Below, in pieces: positions 7,051 to 38,461 of a stretch of DNA of 62,607 bases. The notes under the pieces were generated by a model. The model did no database searches, was not told where the DNA came from, and saw only the letters and a program-made list of their open reading frames with translations. Where the stretch lies: the IMG/VR virus record IMGVR_UViG_3300017728_000004, positions 1 through 62,607 of that record. The stretch is one strand, 5' to 3'. The position numbers and the translations under genes were made by a program. Numbering within the stretch: the first letter of the stretch is position 1; the number at the start of each line of letters is the position of its first letter. The DNA is from a virus.

Positions 7051-7492
7051 TGATTATATTTTAGGACATTGGTCAAATAAATTTCAAGCACAATCTGCTC
7101 CTCACCATTTTTCTACAGTAGAGATAGTATGGGAGAAAGTAGATGGAGGATATCATTCAAAAAATTATTTCAGGTCTGATGGTCCTGACAAACCTTATAG
7201 AGAAAGGTATCATAAAACTATTACCGTATCAGACACAGAAGTTCGTTTTGAGAACTATGACTTAGACTGGACAAGATGCGAAAACTGTGATATGATATTT
7301 AAGTTCGATGATAATATCTGGCATGGAAAATTGATTGGCGATCTATGCACAGGTGTTAGAGGGCATAAAGTTATATCTGAGATCCACCTCTATGGAGACA
7401 AACTACATAGTAAAGATCAAGGATATAACACGGAGGGTGAAATGATGTGGGGTTCAGAATGCCTTTACAAATTCATCCGACAGGGAGAATAA
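7040..7492 (+). CDS. cpeT: CpeT-like phycobiliprotein lyase
   Basis: A 150 aa protein starting at ATG 7040 inside the end of cp12; a 12-codon upstream extension lies within cp12 and is unlikely to be used. It shows the CpeT/CpcT pattern: GHWSNKFQAQ near the N-terminus, PYRERYHK, a Cys-rich CENCDMIFKFD, NIWHGK, and near the C-terminus SKDQGYNTEGEM followed by WGSECLYKF. CpeT-type lyases handle bilin attachment to phycoerythrin, and phage versions are known in marine cyanophages. It forms one transcription unit with cp12. Its last 10 bases are also the first bases of tRNA-Val. Confidence 0.85.
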   Translation: MKIDDYILGHWSNKFQAQSAPHHFSTVEIVWEKVDGGYHSKNYFRSDGPDKPYRERYHKTITVSDTEVRFENYDLDWTRCENCDMIFKFDDNIWHGKLIGDLCTGVRGHKVISEIHLYGDKLHSKDQGYNTEGEMMWGSECLYKFIRQGE

Positions 7493-7554
7493 CTCAGCGG
7501 TAGAGTGGCTCGTTTACACCGAGTTTGTCGGGGGTTCGATCCCCTCTTTTCCCA
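7483..7554 (+). tRNA. tRNA-Val (UAC)
   Basis: Full cloverleaf by eye: acceptor GGGAGAA/TTTTCCC with one G-U pair, D stem ACTC/GAGT, anticodon stem GCTCG/CGAGT with loop TTTACAC (anticodon TAC), T stem GGGGG/CCCTC with loop TTCGATC, discriminator A. No CCA is encoded. The 5' end overlaps the last codons of cpeT, so processing of this tRNA would cut the cpeT message at its stop codon. Confidence 0.92.
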
Positions 7555-12916: not shown

Positions 12917-13145
12917 AACTCGTGAATCAATGGAAATGCTATTTGCTGCAAAGTGGAATCTTCCTAAAGCAGCAAAAAATTGCAATCTAACTGAAAAAGA
13001 AATGAAAATTACTTTTAACGAATATTGTCATTTTCATCCTCCCACTTGGGAAATTGGTAATAGTAAACAAATTGGAGTACTCTACACTGATGGGAGTGTG
13101 GCGGAATTGGTAGACGCACCAGACTTAAAATCTGTTGAGAATTAA
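12906..13145 (+). CDS. Small phage protein whose frame ends inside tRNA-Leu
   Basis: A 79 aa protein from ATG 12906, which overlaps the previous stop. The first ~60 residues look like a real protein (MRPETRESMEML, then NLPKAAKNCNLTEKEM, a helix-turn-helix-like pattern with the ending FHPPTWE). The last ~17 residues (VAELVDAPDLKSVEN) are the direct translation of the tRNA-Leu gene, and no earlier stop exists in frame. Either the tRNA was inserted at the 3' end of an older gene, or the C-terminus is truly read through the tRNA. A role in DNA binding is possible but unproven. Confidence 0.6.
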   Translation: MRPETRESMEMLFAAKWNLPKAAKNCNLTEKEMKITFNEYCHFHPPTWEIGNSKQIGVLYTDGSVAELVDAPDLKSVEN

Positions 13146-13176
13146 TCTCGTGGGGGTTCAAGTCCCCCTTCTCCTA
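13092..13176 (+). tRNA. tRNA-Leu (UAA)
   Basis: A class II tRNA: GGGAGTG acceptor arm, GCGGAATTGGTAGACGC D-arm signature, anticodon loop CTTAAAA (anticodon TAA), a long variable arm with GAGA/TCTC stem, T arm GGGGG-TTCAAGT-CCCCC, discriminator A. The acceptor stem has weak positions (G-T at 1-72, T-T at 6-67). Positions 13092-13145 are also coding in the gene upstream. No CCA is encoded. Confidence 0.88.
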
Positions 13177-13969: not shown

Positions 13970-14041
13970 TCCTCTTTAGCTCAGCGGTAGAGCGATTGAC
14001 TGTTAATCAATTAGTCCCTGGTTCGATCCCAGGAAGGGGAG
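13970..14041 (+). tRNA. tRNA-Asn (GUU)
   Basis: Acceptor TCCTCTT/AAGGGGA, D arm GCTC-AGCGGTA-GAGC, anticodon stem ATTGA/TCAAT with loop CTGTTAA (anticodon GTT), T arm CCTGG-TTCGATC-CCAGG, discriminator G. No CCA encoded. The discriminator base is also the first base of the GTG start of the next gene. The upstream spacer (13927-13969) contains AGAGGG and CCCTCT arms that could form a hairpin relevant to processing. Confidence 0.93.
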
Positions 14042-28720: not shown

Positions 28721-29926
28721 ATGGGTCAATTTAACGTAGATCATCTACAAGCAACTAATATTACTAGTAGTGGTATTTTACAGGCACTCGGTGGATTTAA
28801 GTTCCCCTCTGTTACTACTTCAACTAGACCTAGTAGTCCTATCGCTGGTCAAACTGTTTATAATAGTGATGAAGTAGCACTAGAAGTTTATGATGGATCT
28901 GCATGGCAAACTATCGCTGGTGGTGGTGTGTTTCCTACATGGGCAAATGTTGCGGGAAGACCATCATCTGGTCTGGTGAATGCATATACAGGTATTAACA
29001 TTGCAGATTCAAAATTAGAAATTTATGACCTTGCTAATACTGAATGGATTCAAATTGGATTAGGTCAATCTAATCCTATTACTGCTAGTGGTGGTGATAA
29101 TGAATATACTCCTGGCGATGGTTTTAAGTATCACGTATTTACATCTGATGGAACATTAACAGTATCGGCAGGAAATGATGATGTTCAATATGTTGTAGTT
29201 GCTGGTGGCGGAGGCGGCGGTGGCGGTGACGTTGGTTGTGGTGGTGGTGCTGGTGGATATCGTTCTAATGTTCCTGGTTTCCCTTCGGGTGGCGGTAGTG
29301 CTGCTGAACCATCAATGACGCTCGCTCCTGGAACTTATCCTGTTGTTGTTGGTCCTGGTGGTCCTGGATCTAGTAGTTCTCCTTCTGATGCTAGTGACGG
29401 TGGCGAATCTAGTTTCAATGGCATCGTTTCCGCTGGTGGTGGTGGCGGTGCATCATGGGGTTCTGGAGAAGGTCGCTCTGGTGGATCTGGTGGTGGATCT
29501 GCTAGCACCCGTACTGGTGCAGCAGGAACAGCAAACCAAGGTTTCGCTGGTGCTAGTGGTCGTGGTGGTCCCCACTACCCTCAAGGCGGAGGCGGTGGCG
29601 CTGGTGGCGCTGGTGAACCCTCCAGAAATAATGATTTTGCTGGAAACGGTGGTTTTGGTCTTGTTAATCCCTTTGGCGCTGTTACTTCAATAGGAGAAAG
29701 AGTTAACAAAAGCTATTGGTTAGCAGGTGGCGGTGGTGGTGGAGTTGAATCCAACGCTGAGACTGGTCGCGGTGGTCTAGGTGGCGGCGGCATTGGTGGT
29801 CGTCAAAGTCCTAACACTGACCCGTCTCCAGGCAGTGCTAACACTGGTGGCGGTGGCGGTGGAGAGGATAGCGGCACGGGTGGTGCTGGTGGATCTGGTG
29901 TTGTGATGATCAGGTACGCAAACTAA
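28721..29926 (+). CDS. Fibre protein with glycine-rich adhesin head, member 7
   Basis: A 401 aa protein. Anchor: FKFPSVTTSTRP, GQTVYNSDEVALEVY, SAWQTIAGGG, then a second unit. The head (about 150-401) is built of polyglycine motifs alternating with short loops and ends GGSGVVMIRYAN, the usual end of glycine-rich phage adhesins. T2-type gp38 adhesins use similar polyglycine sandwiches to bind host outer-membrane proteins. DNA here is visibly richer in G and C because of the Gly codons. Final gene of the array, followed by a strong terminator. Confidence 0.7.
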   Translation: MGQFNVDHLQATNITSSGILQALGGFKFPSVTTSTRPSSPIAGQTVYNSDEVALEVYDGSAWQTIAGGGVFPTWANVAGRPSSGLVNAYTGINIADSKLEIYDLANTEWIQIGLGQSNPITASGGDNEYTPGDGFKYHVFTSDGTLTVSAGNDDVQYVVVAGGGGGGGGDVGCGGGAGGYRSNVPGFPSGGGSAAEPSMTLAPGTYPVVVGPGGPGSSSSPSDASDGGESSFNGIVSAGGGGGASWGSGEGRSGGSGGGSASTRTGAAGTANQGFAGASGRGGPHYPQGGGGGAGGAGEPSRNNDFAGNGGFGLVNPFGAVTSIGERVNKSYWLAGGGGGGVESNAETGRGGLGGGGIGGRQSPNTDPSPGSANTGGGGGGEDSGTGGAGGSGVVMIRYAN

Positions 29927-29945
29927 CCAACTCAACAACTGTCAC

Positions 29946-29970
29946 ACCCCCTTGCATAGGGGGTTTTTTT
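29946..29970 (+). terminator. Rho-independent terminator of the fibre array
   Basis: Stem ACCCCC (29946-29951) and GGGGGT (29959-29964), loop TTGCATA, followed by a run of T to 29970. The loop holds the -35 box of the following promoter. Confidence 0.9.
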
Positions 29971-29980
29971 ATGCTATGCT
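29952..29980 (+). promoter_or_regulatory. sigma70-like promoter nested in the terminator
   Basis: TTGCAT (29952-29957) forms the terminator loop. The 3' stem and T-tract form the 17-base spacer, and TATGCT (29975-29980) is the -10. It would start the small-gene cluster at 30006. Confidence 0.65.
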
Positions 29981-30005
29981 TACTAGGTAATCAAAGGTTA
30001 AACCG

Positions 30006-30218
30006 ATGCCTCAATTCACTCTCATTTGTACTGATGAGGACCAGACTGTAACAACTAAAGAATTTGAAGCATCTATTTTGCAGGAAGTTGTTGAAAAAAC
30101 TCAAGACTTTTTGAAGGGTGTTGGATACTGCTTTGAAGAATTGCACACTCAGATTTATCCTGTACCTGAAAGGGATGATACTGAGTACAGTTCTCTTTAT
30201 CGTAATGTTGATTCCTGA
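30006..30218 (+). CDS. Small phage protein
   Basis: A 70 aa protein, first in the small-gene cluster after the terminator/promoter unit. MPQFTLICTDEDQTV at the start and a helical middle (LQEVVEKTQDFLKG) suggest a small alpha/beta fold. No family recognised. Confidence 0.65.
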   Translation: MPQFTLICTDEDQTVTTKEFEASILQEVVEKTQDFLKGVGYCFEELHTQIYPVPERDDTEYSSLYRNVDS

Positions 30219-30259
30219 TACATATACCTGTAGTTTATCTTAACTTCAAATTCAAGACA

Positions 30260-30448
30260 ATGGGCAAGACTTTTCGACGTGGTGGTGCCGAAAGAGGTTA
30301 TTACTCTCCTGGAAAATCCATCCGTGATAAACGTCAACGAGGCGGAACTAATCGATCAAACTGGGGAGAAGATTCTAGTGACAATTACCAATCCAAAAAC
30401 AACAAAAAAGGAAAACGTGGAGTTGAGTTTGAAGATGATGGATGGTAA
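30260..30448 (+). CDS. Small basic phage protein
   Basis: A 62 aa, Arg/Lys/Gly-rich protein (GKTFRRGGAERGYY, SIRDKRQRGG, KNNKKGKRG) with a short acidic end. It probably binds nucleic acid or is disordered; nothing more can be said. It overlaps the following acidic mini-gene. Confidence 0.6.
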   Translation: MGKTFRRGGAERGYYSPGKSIRDKRQRGGTNRSNWGEDSSDNYQSKNNKKGKRGVEFEDDGW

Positions 30449-30542
30449 CGATCTCGATGAAATCGAAAACTTTTATGAAGACATAGAGTTTGACGATGGA
30501 TCCGAGATAGAATACGATCTAGACTACACTACTCAAGCATAA
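30435..30542 (+). CDS. Acidic mini-protein
   Basis: A 35 aa frame from ATG 30435 (a second ATG at 30438), overlapping the stop of the basic gene by 14 bases. It is almost entirely acidic (DLDEIENFYEDIEFDD). The coupling of a basic and an acidic small protein suggests they could pair. A longer frame from 30279 lies inside the basic gene and is unlikely. Confidence 0.45.
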   Translation: MMDGNDLDEIENFYEDIEFDDGSEIEYDLDYTTQA

Positions 30543-30554
30543 CTAACTAATCGA

Positions 30555-30740
30555 ATGGACTTCGACTCTGAATCTCAAGACGTAAAGTTTAATCGGGGAC
30601 TTGATCTCTTCATGGAGTCTGTTCTCAAACCTGACACTAAATTACGTCAATGTGCTCACAATCAACAATGCTATCACGAACTAATGTATATTCGTGAGTA
30701 TGTAATGGGTTACCTTAAAACTTTAAGGAGGGCAGACTAG
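30555..30740 (+). CDS. Small phage protein
   Basis: A 61 aa, mostly helical protein with three cysteine/histidine positions (LRQCAHNQQCYHE). No family recognised. An AAGGAGGG site near its 3' end serves the next gene. Confidence 0.6.
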   Translation: MDFDSESQDVKFNRGLDLFMESVLKPDTKLRQCAHNQQCYHELMYIREYVMGYLKTLRRAD

Positions 30741-30741
30741 C

Positions 30742-30936
30742 ATGCAATTTTTACACTCTGCAATCCTTGATCAGGAACAAAAAGTAGTTATAAAAGATGC
30801 GTTAGTCATGTATATTTCTAATTTGCAAAAGCGCTACTACCGTGATAAGATGATTGAAGAATCTCTATATCTTAAAAAGATGAGAGAGATTGAACAAATC
30901 GTTGAGGCACTACATCTATCTGACTTATATCGATGA
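30742..30936 (+). CDS. Small helical phage protein
   Basis: A 64 aa protein preceded by a strong ribosome site (AGGAGGG, about 30725). Helical and charged (YYRDKMIEESLYLKKMREIEQ), likely coiled coil. Its stop overlaps the next start (ATGA). Confidence 0.65.
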   Translation: MQFLHSAILDQEQKVVIKDALVMYISNLQKRYYRDKMIEESLYLKKMREIEQIVEALHLSDLYR

Positions 30937-31103
30937 AAAAAGACATTCAATTGCTAAAACATGCAATCAAAGCAGGCAATGCAGATCCCTTCCTCTATAC
31001 TGAAGAAGAGATGCATCGCTTAAAGAAAAAACTTCGTCAATTGAAAGATTGGCATCGCTCTAGTAACATTGCTCAAAAAGGTGGATTTGGTTATGAATTT
31101 TGA
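30933..31103 (+). CDS. Small phage protein
   Basis: A 56 aa frame starting in ATGA overlap: MKKDIQLLKHAIKAG, then a basic helix (HRLKKKLRQLKDW) and ends GGFGYEF. The next gene starts within its last codons. No family recognised. Confidence 0.55.
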   Translation: MKKDIQLLKHAIKAGNADPFLYTEEEMHRLKKKLRQLKDWHRSSNIAQKGGFGYEF

Positions 31104-31224
31104 TGAGAACTTTGACATCTCTTGGGATGACACTGATATCTGTCAGGCACCCGAAGATGATTGGATTTCTGCTGTTCTTGGCAGCGAATGTGAAGTAATC
31201 GATGAACTTATCTATGAACAATGA
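31093..31224 (+). CDS. Acidic mini-protein
   Basis: A 43 aa frame, acidic (NFDENFDISWDDTD), overlapping both neighbours by 11 bases. No family recognised; kept because the chained overlaps match the rest of this cluster. Confidence 0.5.
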   Translation: MNFDENFDISWDDTDICQAPEDDWISAVLGSECEVIDELIYEQ

Positions 31225-31369
31225 TCGCTGGCGTATTACTTGGCGTAAAGAAAAGAAAGTTGAAGGGTGCTTTTCAAATCAAGAGATCTTTGTATATGGT
31301 ATTGACAATGTTGAGTATGTGATTAAAACAATGGTCCCCACTGATGAATGGAGTGTAACACCTGCATGA
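31214..31369 (+). CDS. Small phage protein
   Basis: A 51 aa protein (MNNDRWRITWRKEKK, then FVYGIDNVEYVIKTM), probably a small beta sheet. It starts inside the previous gene and ends in ATGA overlap with the next. Confidence 0.55.
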   Translation: MNNDRWRITWRKEKKVEGCFSNQEIFVYGIDNVEYVIKTMVPTDEWSVTPA

Positions 31370-31659
31370 AATTGTCTGATCAACAACTTCAACCACATGA
31401 ACCCCCTGAAGGATATCGATATGAGACAGTTTGCTTTAAGACTAATGTTTGTGCAGTGTGGATTATATCTGATCATAGGTTCCTTTATAATGATAACAAT
31501 CCCTCTCGTTGTATCTGGGGTTTCTACAACACAAAGACCAAACATTACCACAGTCCAGTAACACATAAGAAGGTTGGAGATCGTGTTAACTTGAGTGATA
31601 CTTCTCCTTATTCGGCAATGGTTAAACACCTAGTCGGGTTAGAAAAGTTCTTTGTATGA
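31366..31659 (+). CDS. Hypothetical phage protein
   Basis: A 97 aa protein from ATG 31366. PPEGYRYETVCFKT and CAVWIISDHRFLYN suggest a beta-rich core with three cysteines. Last gene of this cluster; a terminator with an embedded promoter follows. Confidence 0.6.
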   Translation: MKLSDQQLQPHEPPEGYRYETVCFKTNVCAVWIISDHRFLYNDNNPSRCIWGFYNTKTKHYHSPVTHKKVGDRVNLSDTSPYSAMVKHLVGLEKFFV

Positions 31660-31673
31660 CAGTCGCTGAACTG
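31660..31673 (+). promoter_or_regulatory. CAGT-N5-AACTG element, copy 1
   Basis: CAGT, five bases and AACTG, 11 bases before the -35 of the R-M-like operon promoter. The same half-sites occur near four other promoters at 35.3-39.5 kb, so this is a likely operator. Confidence 0.55.
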
Positions 31674-31677
31674 GTTC

Positions 31678-31703
31678 GGATCCCTTGACGGGGGTCCTTT
31701 TTT
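31678..31703 (+). terminator. Rho-independent terminator with promoter in its loop
   Basis: Stem GGATCCC (31678-31684) with GGGGTCC (31691-31697, one G-T pair), loop TTGACG, then six T. It ends the small-gene cluster. Confidence 0.85.
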
Positions 31704-31713
31704 ATGCCATACT
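31685..31713 (+). promoter_or_regulatory. sigma70-like promoter of the R-M-like operon
   Basis: TTGACG (31685-31690) is exactly the terminator loop. The spacer is 17 bases, and the -10 is CATACT (31708-31713; TACTAT two bases later is an alternative). The leader ATAAGAGTCAA recurs at 35.4 and 36.9 kb. Confidence 0.7.
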
Positions 31714-31735
31714 ATAAGAGTCAAGCAGGCACCCC

Positions 31736-31957
31736 ATGACCCGCTCAACCAGACCATTGAAAATGTCTGAAGCATTCAAACTAGTGAAGCATGCTGGAGG
31801 CGTTGTAACCTCAGCAGGCAAGCATCTGAAGGTTTCACACCCTTCCATCCTTCAGACTTTTACGCTACCCTACGGGGGCAGCAGAGGACGCCCCACGCTC
31901 TCTCCAGGCATCTCATCTGAACTCCGTAAGTATCTCAAACTAACCCATGTATCCTAA
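31736..31957 (+). CDS. HicA-like small protein
   Basis: A 73 aa protein with a pattern like the HicA toxin double-stranded-RNA-binding fold: helix AFKLVKHAGG, a strand with GKHLKV where HicA has its catalytic GSH, a strand FTLPYGG, then PTLSPGISSELRKYL for the C-terminal helix. The His is kept but the Ser is replaced by Lys. No HicB-like partner is seen next to it. It overlaps the start of the putative nuclease by 11 bases, so they are co-translated. HicA call is tentative. Confidence 0.4.
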   Translation: MTRSTRPLKMSEAFKLVKHAGGVVTSAGKHLKVSHPSILQTFTLPYGGSRGRPTLSPGISSELRKYLKLTHVS

Positions 31958-32555
31958 TAAACTTAAAGAAGTTCTTGCCTTTCTTAATTCAATTCAGATT
32001 GATATTGCTGAAGGACATGAAGACGGACGTATTAACAGTATCACTGATGAGGACACACTAATTGATCTTCTGATCGAAGAGTTTGGTGCTGACAATATCA
32101 TCAAACCACCCCCAAGATGCTGGTGGGATGTTAAGATCTTCGGTTACTTCTTTAACATCAAGTCCTCTGGATATGATGCTGCTGATAACTTTTCTTCCAA
32201 GTCTGCTATTCTGTGGGCACTCACCTCATTAAGTGAGGAAGATGTAGTTATCAAGGGCAGAGATCAGTGGAAGCAGTTTCAAGATAGACTGAAAGATGCT
32301 AAGGATACTGACAACAATAGAGACTATTATATCTTATCAATTAATAAGAATACCAATGAAGTTCATCTGTCCTCACTGAAGACACTGAACAGAATCACAT
32401 CTAACGGTAACAATCTACCATTCCAAATCAATTGGAAGCATAACACTACTACGGTCAATCGTACTCATAGACAGGCATACGATTTTCTGGTACAATGTTA
32501 CAAGGAATCTGTACGCAAAAAACTATCACAGCATGACGACTATGAATCTCTTTGA
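31947..32555 (+). CDS. Putative PD-(D/E)XK-type restriction endonuclease
   Basis: A 202 aa protein overlapping both neighbours. Residues 59-75 (WWDVKIFGYFFNIKSS) fit the PD-(D/E)XK nuclease core: a catalytic Asp at 61 and NIK at 70-72 in the place of ExK. An acidic helix with Glu residues precedes it. Size and position directly before a DNA methyltransferase gene fit a type II restriction enzyme. NxK rather than ExK is unusual but tolerated in some families. The N-terminal half and target site cannot be assigned from sequence. Confidence 0.5.
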   Translation: MYPNKLKEVLAFLNSIQIDIAEGHEDGRINSITDEDTLIDLLIEEFGADNIIKPPPRCWWDVKIFGYFFNIKSSGYDAADNFSSKSAILWALTSLSEEDVVIKGRDQWKQFQDRLKDAKDTDNNRDYYILSINKNTNEVHLSSLKTLNRITSNGNNLPFQINWKHNTTTVNRTHRQAYDFLVQCYKESVRKKLSQHDDYESL

Positions 32556-33306
32556 GTTACATCAAGGTGACTGTCTTTCACTGATGAATGACATTCAGGA
32601 TAAATCCATCGATCTTATCTGCTGTGATCCCCCATACGGCACCACGAGCATCAAGTGGGATGAAGTTTTGGACTTTAACACTATGTGGGCACAATATGAT
32701 CGCATATTGAAACCCAAGGGTGTAATCGTGCTGTTTGGATCACAACCATTCTCGGCACAATTGATCTGCTCTAAGTTAGATTGGTTTCGCTATGAGTTAG
32801 TATGGAACAAGAACAAATGTGGTAGTCCTGGACTAGCAAAGAAGCGACCAATGAAGACGCATGAGAATATACTCATCTTCTACAAAGAAGCAGGTGGAAC
32901 ATATAATCCACAGATGGAAGTTGGAGAACCGTATGCACGGACTAGCAAGAATCCTGAGGGTTATGTAGGACGCAAGAATGACCATGGTTATGGTATGAAA
33001 CCGCGTAAATCTTTCGAGAACAAAGGAACACGCTATCCCAAGTCAATTGTTAACATCTCTAGAGACTTTAGCGCACAACAGCAAGTGCATCCCACGCAAA
33101 AACCTGTGCCTTTAATGGAGTGGTTGATCAAAACTTACTCTAATGAGGGTGAAACTGTGCTGGACAATTGCATGGGTTCAGGTTCTACTGGTGTCGCTGC
33201 GGTAAAACTTAATAGAAAGTTTATTGGCATTGACAATGATGCGGAATATGTTAGAATCTCTCAAGAAAGAATTGAATCAATCCCTATCGATATTACAAAT
33301 CTATGA
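32533..33306 (+). CDS. DNA methyltransferase (N6-adenine or N4-cytosine, beta class)
   Basis: A 257 aa protein starting at ATG 32533 (ATG 32542 is an alternative) inside the end of the nuclease gene. Motif IV is CCDPPYGTTS near residues 30-40. A target-recognition region in the middle has KNKCGSPGLAKK. HPTQKPVPLMEW and the AdoMet-binding motif DNCMGSGSTGVA (about 213-224) follow, then FIGIDND. Motif order IV before I marks the beta class. It methylates an amino group in a specific DNA sequence, protecting phage DNA, and pairs naturally with the putative nuclease. Confidence 0.9.
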   Translation: MTTMNLFELHQGDCLSLMNDIQDKSIDLICCDPPYGTTSIKWDEVLDFNTMWAQYDRILKPKGVIVLFGSQPFSAQLICSKLDWFRYELVWNKNKCGSPGLAKKRPMKTHENILIFYKEAGGTYNPQMEVGEPYARTSKNPEGYVGRKNDHGYGMKPRKSFENKGTRYPKSIVNISRDFSAQQQVHPTQKPVPLMEWLIKTYSNEGETVLDNCMGSGSTGVAAVKLNRKFIGIDNDAEYVRISQERIESIPIDITNL

Positions 33307-34568
33307 CATACACAGCATTGGACGAAAAGTTTTTGACTGAAAACACAGAAATCATCACAGAAGAGAATCTTAATGAGAATCTTTTCTTCAATAATGAGAA
33401 TCTTGCTCATCATCGTACTATGTCAGAACTACCTCAGGGTGGTTACTATCGTCTGACTACTGCACTCAATCGCAGGCAACGTCGTGCATATGGAAGACTG
33501 CTTAAAAAGCAACTTCAAGCAATCGATATCAGGCAAATTCATCCTCCTTGCGTACCACTTAGCAACCGTAAAACTGGTGAGGTTATCTATCCTAATGGAT
33601 TGCAGATTCGTGCGGATGTGACTACTAACGTTGATACTATTGCAAAGTTTCAGAAGGTAATCGCTGCTAATGAATGGGAGGCAACTAAAGATCAGATGAT
33701 GTTGATTGTGCTCCCTGAAGAATACCAATACATCGATGAATTGACTGGGGTTAAAGTTATCTACGGTTTGCTCGATGGCAATCATCGATTCAAGGCAATT
33801 AATGGTCTCGCGGAAGATGTTATCTTTGCATGGGTTCTTGATATGAATCTAGGAGAGATCTGGGAGTTTGGTAATGCCTTCTGCAATCGTGATACTAATG
33901 TAGTTCAACCCAGAACTAATGCTGATATCTCTAACGCACTGGTTAAAACTGTTACTGACCCTGAGTCCGATTTGCATCAGTTAGTAGAGGCAACTAAAGT
34001 AGAAGGATATACTGGAAAGAATATTGATGAGATTCTAGAGGCGAAACTTAGGGAAGATTATGATGTAGGTGGCACACAAATCAATGCCGTTCTTCGTATC
34101 TTCAATGCTAGTGAAGAGCATGAATATCACTCTGATATTAAACGCTACTATGCTCCTGAGGTTAGTGAGTGGGTCACTCGCAATCGTCCTGGATGGGTGA
34201 TTATGGATGGTGCTAAAACCTCCGAGGGAATTTATAGAAACCCCGAGACAGATCAGATCTGTCTTGTGTATATCGATAAAGGATCTGTTATGCTACACAC
34301 TGTTTTGAAACTTGCTAAGATGGTGCAACAATATCCTGACAAAGGTTTCATGGTGATTCATGTTGTTTCTCCTGAGGTTGCTAACTCCTTCACCGAGGAA
34401 AGTATTAAAGCAAAGGATAATGTTATCAAAAATGAATTCTATGAAATGATCCGAGATATTGCAGGTCTAGGTAATATGTTAGACACCGACAAAGGTATTC
34501 ACATTCGTCACGCTAGATTGCCTCTATATCCAAATGAAATGACTCGTAACAGTTTGATATATGTGTGA
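33303..34568 (+). CDS. ParB-like DGNHR-domain protein
   Basis: A 421 aa protein whose ATG overlaps the methyltransferase stop. The middle has YGLLDGNHRFKAING, the ParB/sulfiredoxin-like signature (DGxHR) found in ParB-type CTPases/nucleases and in DndB-like proteins. The C-terminal part (about 240-421) is helical with no domain I recognise (ESDLHQLVEATK, VLRIFNASEEHEY). Co-translation with an R-M-like pair suggests a DNA-binding or accessory function for that system. Alternatively it may be an independent host-takeover factor. Confidence 0.6.
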   Translation: MTYTALDEKFLTENTEIITEENLNENLFFNNENLAHHRTMSELPQGGYYRLTTALNRRQRRAYGRLLKKQLQAIDIRQIHPPCVPLSNRKTGEVIYPNGLQIRADVTTNVDTIAKFQKVIAANEWEATKDQMMLIVLPEEYQYIDELTGVKVIYGLLDGNHRFKAINGLAEDVIFAWVLDMNLGEIWEFGNAFCNRDTNVVQPRTNADISNALVKTVTDPESDLHQLVEATKVEGYTGKNIDEILEAKLREDYDVGGTQINAVLRIFNASEEHEYHSDIKRYYAPEVSEWVTRNRPGWVIMDGAKTSEGIYRNPETDQICLVYIDKGSVMLHTVLKLAKMVQQYPDKGFMVIHVVSPEVANSFTEESIKAKDNVIKNEFYEMIRDIAGLGNMLDTDKGIHIRHARLPLYPNEMTRNSLIYV

Positions 34569-34590
34569 CGATTGAACTAGTGGCACACGG

Positions 34591-34622
34591 TTGCCCCACA
34601 GCACCCCAAAATCGTGTATATT
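34591..34622 (+). promoter_or_regulatory. Weak sigma70-like promoter
   Basis: TTGCCC (34591) and TATATT (34617-34622), with a poor spacer of 20 bases; an alternative GTGTAT gives 17. The leader AGAGTCAAAGGAA matches the better promoters at 35.4 and 36.9 kb, which supports it. Confidence 0.4.
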
Positions 34623-35180: not shown

Positions 35181-35354
35181 ATGGCAAAACAACTCATCGA
35201 AACTACACACCATGTGGTTGAATTTGAATCGAAGAAAGTATATAAGCAAGTCCTTGGTAAGTGTAAAGAATTAGACATCAGTTTGGACCACTATTTGTTT
35301 GAGTTTGATCTCAGCGAGAACGATCAAGAATGGATCGAGTCGCTGACCAGTTGA
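35181..35354 (+). CDS. Small phage protein
   Basis: A 57 aa frame starting 4 bases after the previous stop. HHVVEFESKKVYKQV, then LDHYLFEFDLSEN and EWIESLTS. Its stop codon sits inside the operator-like palindrome of the helicase promoter. Confidence 0.5.
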   Translation: MAKQLIETTHHVVEFESKKVYKQVLGKCKELDISLDHYLFEFDLSENDQEWIESLTS

Positions 35355-35403
35355 GGAACTGGACACAAAACCCCCTAAAGCACCTCAAAAGGTGCCATAC
35401 TAT
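35347..35403 (+). promoter_or_regulatory. CCAGTT-N4-AACTGG palindrome and sigma70-like promoter, copy 2
   Basis: Perfect palindrome CCAGTT-GAGG-AACTGG at 35347-35362. It is followed by ACAAAACCCC, a hairpin GCACCT/AGGTGC (35380-35395), and TACTAT at 35398-35403 with leader ATAAGAGTCAAAG. No clear TTG-type -35. It drives the SF2 helicase gene. Confidence 0.6.
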
Positions 35404-36859: not shown

Positions 36860-36863
36860 TGTG

Positions 36864-36920
36864 CCAGTTGGGGAACTGTACAAAACCCCTTGCAAAATGC
36901 CTCAAAACCTGCAATACTAT
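36864..36920 (+). promoter_or_regulatory. CCAGTT-N4-AACTGT palindrome and sigma70-like promoter, copy 3
   Basis: Palindrome 36864-36879 (last base T instead of G), then ACAAAACCCC, TTGCAA (36890-36895), 17 bases, AATACT (36913-36918; TACTAT two bases later is an alternative), with leader ATAAGAGTCAAAGGAA. Confidence 0.65.
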
Positions 36921-38397: not shown

Positions 38398-38405
38398 ACA
38401 GAAAA

Positions 38406-38461
38406 CCAGTTGGGGAACTGGCACAAAACCCCTTGAAAATCACCCCAAAATCTGCAATAAT
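38406..38461 (+). promoter_or_regulatory. CCAGTT-N4-AACTGG palindrome and sigma70-like promoter, copy 5
   Basis: Perfect palindrome CCAGTT-GGGG-AACTGG (38406-38421), ACAAAACCCC, TTGAAA (38433-38438), 17 bases, AATAAT (38456-38461). The ATG of the next gene (38468) is at the predicted +1. Confidence 0.7.

Follow-up and report, generated by a model that had tools for sequence, protein, structure and literature searches.

Two probable compact PeSL-type boundaries in a T4-like cyanophage record: predicted terminators overlapped with predicted host-sigma-type promoters

In PMC4503421, PeSLs (promoter-early stem-loops) are described as composite promoter-terminator motifs behind modular shuffling in T4-like phages. 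The titles cited there (Arbiol 2010, doi 10.1093/gbe/evq006; Comeau 2014, doi 10.1093/gbe/evu129) connect them to the phages RB49/phi1, T4/PST and KVP40/nt-1, and according to the same text the PeSLs in S-PM2 had earlier been judged too sparse for driving gene exchange. A related body of work concerns the polymerase itself: after termination the E. coli RNA polymerase can stay on the DNA and initiate again at a promoter close by (PMC6978322, PMC6978380), and secondary initiation after termination is usually antisense (PMC6978322).

The window, that is the whole stretch of DNA analysed here, is the 62,607-nt virus record IMGVR_UViG_3300017728_000004. Its nearest relative is Synechococcus phage ACG-2014a, a T4-like cyanomyovirus (Acionnavirus-like), with ~77% identity across 73% of the 6 kb compared. 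Two sites on the + strand were studied, both between codirectional genes. Site 1 (29946-29980) lies between an upstream stop codon ending at 29926 and the next start at 30006, and reads ACCCCC[TTGCAT]AGGGGGT TTTTTTATGC TATGCT. Site 2 (31678-31713) lies between a stop ending at 31659 and a start at 31736, and reads GGATCCC[TTGACG]GGGGTCC TTTTTTATGC CATACT. The predicted intrinsic terminator of site 1 (29946..29971, +) consists of the stem ACCCCC/GGGGGT, the loop TTGCAT(A) and a T7 run; the loop holds the -35-like hexamer TTGCAT (29952..29957, +), a weak match to TTGACA, which is separated by a spacer of 17 nt (29958-29974, +) from the -10 TATGCT (29975..29980, +), with TG just upstream (an extended -10). 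In site 2 the predicted intrinsic terminator (31678..31703, +; stem GGATCCC/GGGGTCC, loop TTGACG, T6 run) carries the -35 TTGACG in its loop (31685..31690, +), and the -10 CATACT (31708..31713, +), again with TG upstream, was found by direct reading and by a promoter scan; the promoter-like site spans 31685-31713 with a spacer of 17. The RNA folds have energies of -12.3 kcal/mol (z -2.5) for site 1 and -13.0 kcal/mol (z -3.0) for site 2, and the two sites have the top two terminator-like scores within the 22-42 kb scanned. Direct reading, folding and the terminator scan thus agree with the sequence-only reading, in which both loops are -35 hexamers followed by a 17-nt spacer and at once by the -10. 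Its further proposal, that one transcript ends and another starts within 35 bases, holds in so far as a putative terminator and a putative promoter overlap in ~35 nt. The stems of the two sites are unrelated sequences, and the two copies have in common only the block TTTTTTATGCYATRCT (about 16 nt), found nowhere else in the record when up to one mismatch is allowed, and the half-dyads described below.

The gene served by site 1 encodes a 70-aa protein (phrog_935; 30006..30218, +). Immediately upstream of cassette 1 is the gene of a Gly_rich_2 glycine-rich domain protein (28721-29926, +), the last of a run with similar N-termini. Directly 3' of cassette 2 lies a 73-aa gene (phrog_18430; 31736..31957, +), not present at this place in ACG-2014a; its PHROG is labelled 'toxin', host takeover, and it has no Pfam match; no Pfam model was found for the small genes adjoining the cassettes. 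It is followed by an endonuclease gene (phrog_3978; 31947-32555, +) that overlaps an N6/N4 DNA methylase gene (32533-33306, +), a restriction-modification-like pair under cassette 2. An Rfam search returned tRNAs only, and the window has three tRNA genes (7483-7554, 13092-13176 and 13970-14041, +).

A strict composite scan, which required 6 or more Watson-Crick pairs in the hairpin, a TTG at its loop, a T-run and a -10 at 16-18 and disallowed G-T pairs, found only site 1 in the window; site 2 was missed because it needs one G-T pair. The dinucleotide-shuffled window gave 0.01 such composites per shuffle (3/300 shuffles), and complete cyanomyovirus genomes contained 0-3 each, compared with 0-0.2 once shuffled. 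A pattern without the hairpin requirement (TTG at spacer 17, T6, ATGYNATRCT) matched the viral-contig collection in at least 91 distinct places, and a hairpin surrounds the TTG in 60 of the 91 distinct matches listed, whereas permuted 5' flanks give 18 (at most 26 in 500 permutations). At least 61 hairpin cassettes stand before at least 34 gene families, mostly with the start codon 3-40 nt away; counts collected by pattern are lower bounds rather than random samples, with near-identical loci collapsed and some relatedness remaining among those counted. Since this set was selected for TTG at 17, it says nothing on how common a spacer of 17 is. Among isolate genomes, S-PM2 and S-SM2 have such a cassette before hli03, and P-HM1 has one upstream of nrdC. 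TTG-loop composites that lack the dyad recur ahead of one family of ~55-aa proteins (MDRERLKLIVKNLKSL...ESEVYSD; loci L015, L029, L034, L053, L070, L079, L085, L088, L099, L113, L116 and L122).

Both sites were compared with the same places in relatives. In ACG-2014a site 1 is GAGGGG[TTACAA]CCCCTC-TTTTTTTATGC-TACAAT and site 2 is GGCACCC[TTGACG]GGGTGCC-TTTTTTATGC-CATACT, so that both stems are other than those of the window while the T-run and the position of the -10 are unchanged. For site 1, the 72 virus loci encoding its gene yielded 43 distinct upstream sequences. All 43 have the extended -10 and 42 have a box [CG]TG[GT]C[AC]; a T-run is found in 31 and is absent from 12. The C-rich arm comes first in the window and two neighbours, the G-rich arm in most others, and the base pairs of the site-1 stem therefore change on both sides. 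For site 2, 17 loci encoding the site-2 endonuclease were available. The stem is GGATCCC/GGGGTCC in the window, GGCACCC/GGGTGCC in ACG-2014a and GGGCAC/GTGCCC in locus L127, with TTGACG and the -10 retained. The close relatives keep TTGAC loops on other stems, and several of the more distant ones keep the hairpin and the -10 with loops such as CTAT, CAAA and ACAT. Since the stems change by compensation while the T-run and the -10 stay, selection on both functions, terminator and promoter, is supported by these comparisons. The overlap itself is widespread among the relatives. The earlier argument that different stems speak for selection is strengthened accordingly by the stem swaps among relatives, which show the opposite of a stem kept while loop and -10 are lost.

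The loop is less general as the seat of a -35. Among the 31 site-1 orthologs with a T-run, TTG occurs in the loop of 21, at spacer 17 in only 11 and at spacer 15 in 10, and is absent from 10, so that the sequence-only reading of the loop as the -35 holds as stated only for a subset. In eight genomes or fragments TTG lies in the loop of 14 of the 68 terminators followed by a -10 and of 19 of the 149 others (Fisher p = 0.16). TTG-loop hairpins with a -10, which the sequence-only reading proposed to look for in other cyanophages, are present in the places counted above; TTG in the loop is not significantly enriched among terminators followed by a -10. In the set chosen by box, T-run and extended -10, the loops of most simple hairpins are GNRA-like or of some other kind, and together with the Fisher test this loop survey led us to reject TTG-in-loop as a general rule. 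TTG does stand at spacer 17 in 24 of the 88 matches listed from this set, against 0-3 at other spacers; these cases come mostly from a sub-family with TTG beside an inner stem, not in the apical loop. A second cassette family (CGTCGCCGCAGAGGGG-AACTGGCACAATCCAGTTGAC-GCCCCTC-TTTTTT; e.g. L344, L346 and L369) has its box embedded in a longer terminator stem of two parts, with the -35 TTGAC next to the inner one. The loop as -35 is common, not obligatory, and in its TTGAC form (site 2) it does look like a true -35.

One might suppose that only the terminators are real and that the -35 and -10 letters arose by chance or simply follow from T-rich flanks, as the lack of significant enrichment and the poor -35s of some site-1 orthologs would allow. 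We consider this extremely unlikely, given that the 12 distinct orthologs without a T-run retain the box and the extended -10, that TTG prefers spacer 17 in the listed matches, and that the distance from the upstream dyad to the -10 is fixed.

It appears that the constant part is the promoter: a dyad GNCASTT-N4-AASTGNC (18 bp), ~32 nt, and then an extended -10 (TGNTATANT). The sequence-only reading missed both this conserved dyad and the hairpin-less sister promoters that carry it. The motif A[AC][CG]TG[GT]CAC, which lies upstream of most of the collected hairpins, is the right half of the dyad. In cyanomyovirus genomes this right-half box ends 30 nt before a strong -10; no such peak of box-to-minus-10 distances was found in T4, RB49, KVP40 or HTVC008M. 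When viral sequences were searched with a free gap (box, gap of 12-24, T-run, extended -10), the gap was 17-21 in all but one of the 88 distinct matches listed and 18-19 in 64 of them. The dyad followed by a -10 at the proper distance (dyad >=11/12) occurs 44 times in eight cyanomyovirus sequences, a count for which the dyad consensus was partly derived from the same genomes, which the reversed-sequence and non-cyanophage controls leave as it is and of which the free-gap test is independent. The unit was found 0 times in the reversed sequence and 0 times in T4, RB49, KVP40, HTVC008M and Syn5. In a listed set chosen without regard to T-runs, a T-run is present in 24 of 70 and a terminator is lacking in 46, and the -35 is little conserved. 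Many loops would lack TTG because the -35 is relaxed in the dyad form.

At site 1 the dyad is ACCAACT-CAAC-AACTGTC (29926..29943, +), with a good right half and a weak left half; from the right half AACTGTCAC to the -10 there are 29 nt, the same distance as in relatives. At site 2 it is GACAGTC-GCTG-AACTGGT (31658..31675, +), which overlaps the stop codon of the preceding gene and has the same half-sites in relatives. The dyad might instead be an RNA hairpin, acting as an anti-terminator or a processing site: pairing is possible (e.g. CAGU/ACUG at site 2) and one cassette family has its box within a longer terminator stem. The half-sites follow one motif without preserved pairing: of the 73 listed cases whose right half is AACTGGC, 0 have the fully complementary GCCAG, whereas 42 have the degenerate [AC]CA[GC], against 1.2 at other offsets. 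The distance to the -10 is, moreover, fixed even where the terminator is absent. On these half-site statistics the dyad as an RNA stem was rejected, and we regard it as very unlikely in comparison with a protein site.

At a looser threshold the window contains six co-oriented units on the + strand within ~9 kb (29.9-38.5 kb), starting at 29926, 31658, 34567, 35346, 36863 and 38405; three weaker matches from the same loose dyad scan elsewhere in the window look like chance. Only two of the six, sites 1 and 2, have terminators. The predicted hairpin-less sister promoters are 34567..34622 (+; dyad 34567-34584, -10 34617-34622), 36863..36918 (+; dyad 36863-36880, -10 36913-36918) and 38405..38461 (+; dyad 38405-38422, -10 38456-38461). 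The predicted sister promoter before the helicase gene (35346..35401, +; dyad 35346-35363, -10 35396-35401) has a GCACCT/AGGTGC hairpin but no T-run. A minus-strand terminator call at 38422-38405 was rejected, as it is the dyad itself. An identical ATAAGAGT follows the -10 in three of the six units.

The overlap has been suggested to couple termination to initiation: the polymerase would release its transcript in the T-run, stay at the -35/-10, bind sigma and restart there. The geometry does put a released polymerase on the promoter, and retention and reinitiation are known for the E. coli enzyme from the studies cited above. Since a terminator is missing from the majority of promoters in this class (4 of the 6 in the window and the 46 of 70 in the listed set), initiation would not need one; tandem, non-overlapping cassettes also exist in RB49, and the published secondary initiation is mostly antisense. 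We therefore hold coupling to be unlikely, although it remains testable because polymerase recycling after termination is known.

In 257 Gb of genome sequence from bacteria and archaea the pattern AACTGGCACA-N25-27-TGNTATAAT has 18 matches, roughly as many as chance would give, none of them in marine Synechococcus or Prochlorococcus; in viral contigs it is found in at least 120 stretches. With no marine cyanobacterial match, an ordinary host sigma70 promoter, or a host origin of the unit, was rejected. We found no description in the open literature of the dyad, or of a -35 in the loop, in cyanophages. It is possible, and we offer it only tentatively, that this is a phage-specific, activator-dependent class of cyanomyovirus promoter (an extended -10 ~32 nt after the dyad), to which a probably phage-encoded protein would bind. 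Terminators would be fitted in between the site of this activator and the -10, and within 60 bp the activator and the transcription arriving from upstream would then regulate each other.

Gene content differs around cassette 2 (31657-31724), a 68-bp island of 87% identity with ACG-2014a between genes that are not shared: the 103-aa gene upstream and the 73-aa gene downstream are both missing there in ACG-2014a, and homology returns at 31946 (92%). In locus L149 there is no 103-aa gene and the gap runs from 31368 to the cassette; L125 matches the window only from 31719 onward; L124, L127, L128 and L131 have a different upstream gene and no 73-aa gene. Breakpoints of gene content fall at the cassette in at least 4 relatives, with gene differences on one or both sides in ACG-2014a, L149, L125, L124 and L127. 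In these alignments the gain and loss of genes has its breakpoints at the sites, as is reported of PeSL cassettes. Such breakpoints, and the at least 34 downstream gene families, would also be expected if the cassettes were kept mainly as recombination joints for gene shuffling, with the transcription signals as shared homology. The stem, which is the longest paired part, differs between copies, however, so that the homology within the genome is short (~16 nt), and compensatory stem change is unnecessary for recombination. As the main reason for keeping the cassettes this seems quite improbable to us, but it can be compatible with the explanation that we prefer.

The two sites are probably compact PeSL-type boundaries of transcription units, in which the intrinsic terminator of the upstream gene is overlapped with a host-sigma-type promoter of the downstream gene. 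The promoter would be the stable object and the terminator an optional layer within it. Because little constraint acts on the sequence from the dyad to the -10, a terminator could fit there with its T-run against the -10; and because the 3' arm (6-8 nt), the T-run (6-7) and ATGC total ~17 nt, any -35 hexamer would fall in the loop, which would be the only part of the hairpin free to carry it. The cassettes would then block read-through and begin the next small cluster of genes in as little room as possible, and may act as break points for gene gain and loss, like PeSLs in T4-like phages. The sequences themselves show the anatomy and its conservation, the compensatory stems, the fixed distance from dyad to -10, the versions that lack a hairpin and the breakpoints of gene content. 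We infer from them that the hairpins act as terminators, the promoters are active and a protein binds the dyad, and the same applies to the time in infection at which the cassettes would act. If so, the boundaries of transcription units in highly abundant marine phages can now be defined concretely enough to be searched for, and their promoters predicted by a rule (dyad, 32 nt, extended -10, with an optional terminator between). The unit is not found in the tested coliphage and vibriophage relatives and looks virus-specific.

Finally, the cassettes can be set against the known systems. Polymerase recycling (PMC6978322, PMC6978380) offers a physical basis for passing a terminated polymerase to a nearby promoter; it differs in that single-molecule assays and RNA-seq showed it for the E. 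coli enzyme, where terminator and promoter are not built to overlap. If the overlap affects recycling, the cyanophage cassettes would be a natural test bed. With PeSLs they share the short intergenic cassette of an intrinsic terminator and a sigma70-like promoter, which recurs ahead of small variable genes and lies at gene-content breakpoints. Both window sites have a terminator-like stem-loop with a T-run and a sigma70-like promoter in the same short cassette; they are found in a T4-like phage, in the small-gene region between the glycine-rich-domain protein gene and the helicase gene; and the cassette is where inserted or deleted genes stop. We would file them as PeSL on account of their anatomy, their setting and the breakpoints, with the definition of the class taken here from titles and citing papers.

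In RB49 the cassettes are tandem (hairpin, T-run and then TTGACA, with the -10 ~49 nt from the loop), whereas the window sites are overlapped. Overlap is common to KVP40, where the -35 (TTGC/TTGAC) lies inside the terminator hairpin, the 3' arm and T-run serve as spacer and the -10 follows directly, as in the example AGGGTTGC[TTCG]GCAGCCCTTTTTGCGTATTATA; 7 such cassettes were counted by the strict pattern and ~10 in a listing, with the -10 17 nt from the loop centre. KVP40 differs from the window in that its -35 begins within the 5' arm instead of forming the loop, its -10 reads TATTAT/TATCAT, and its copies have nearly the same stem sequence. Since RB49 has the tandem form and KVP40 the overlapped one with TTGC/TTGAC in the hairpin, the window sites belong with the PeSLs in kind, and the overlap is one that KVP40 has as well. 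T4, RB49 and KVP40 lack the upstream dyad that the cyanophage form has. PeSL-kind promoter-terminator cassettes would thereby extend to cyanophages, and on the comparisons made here the loop-borne -35 with the upstream dyad appears to be the cyanophage variant of PeSL-type cassettes.
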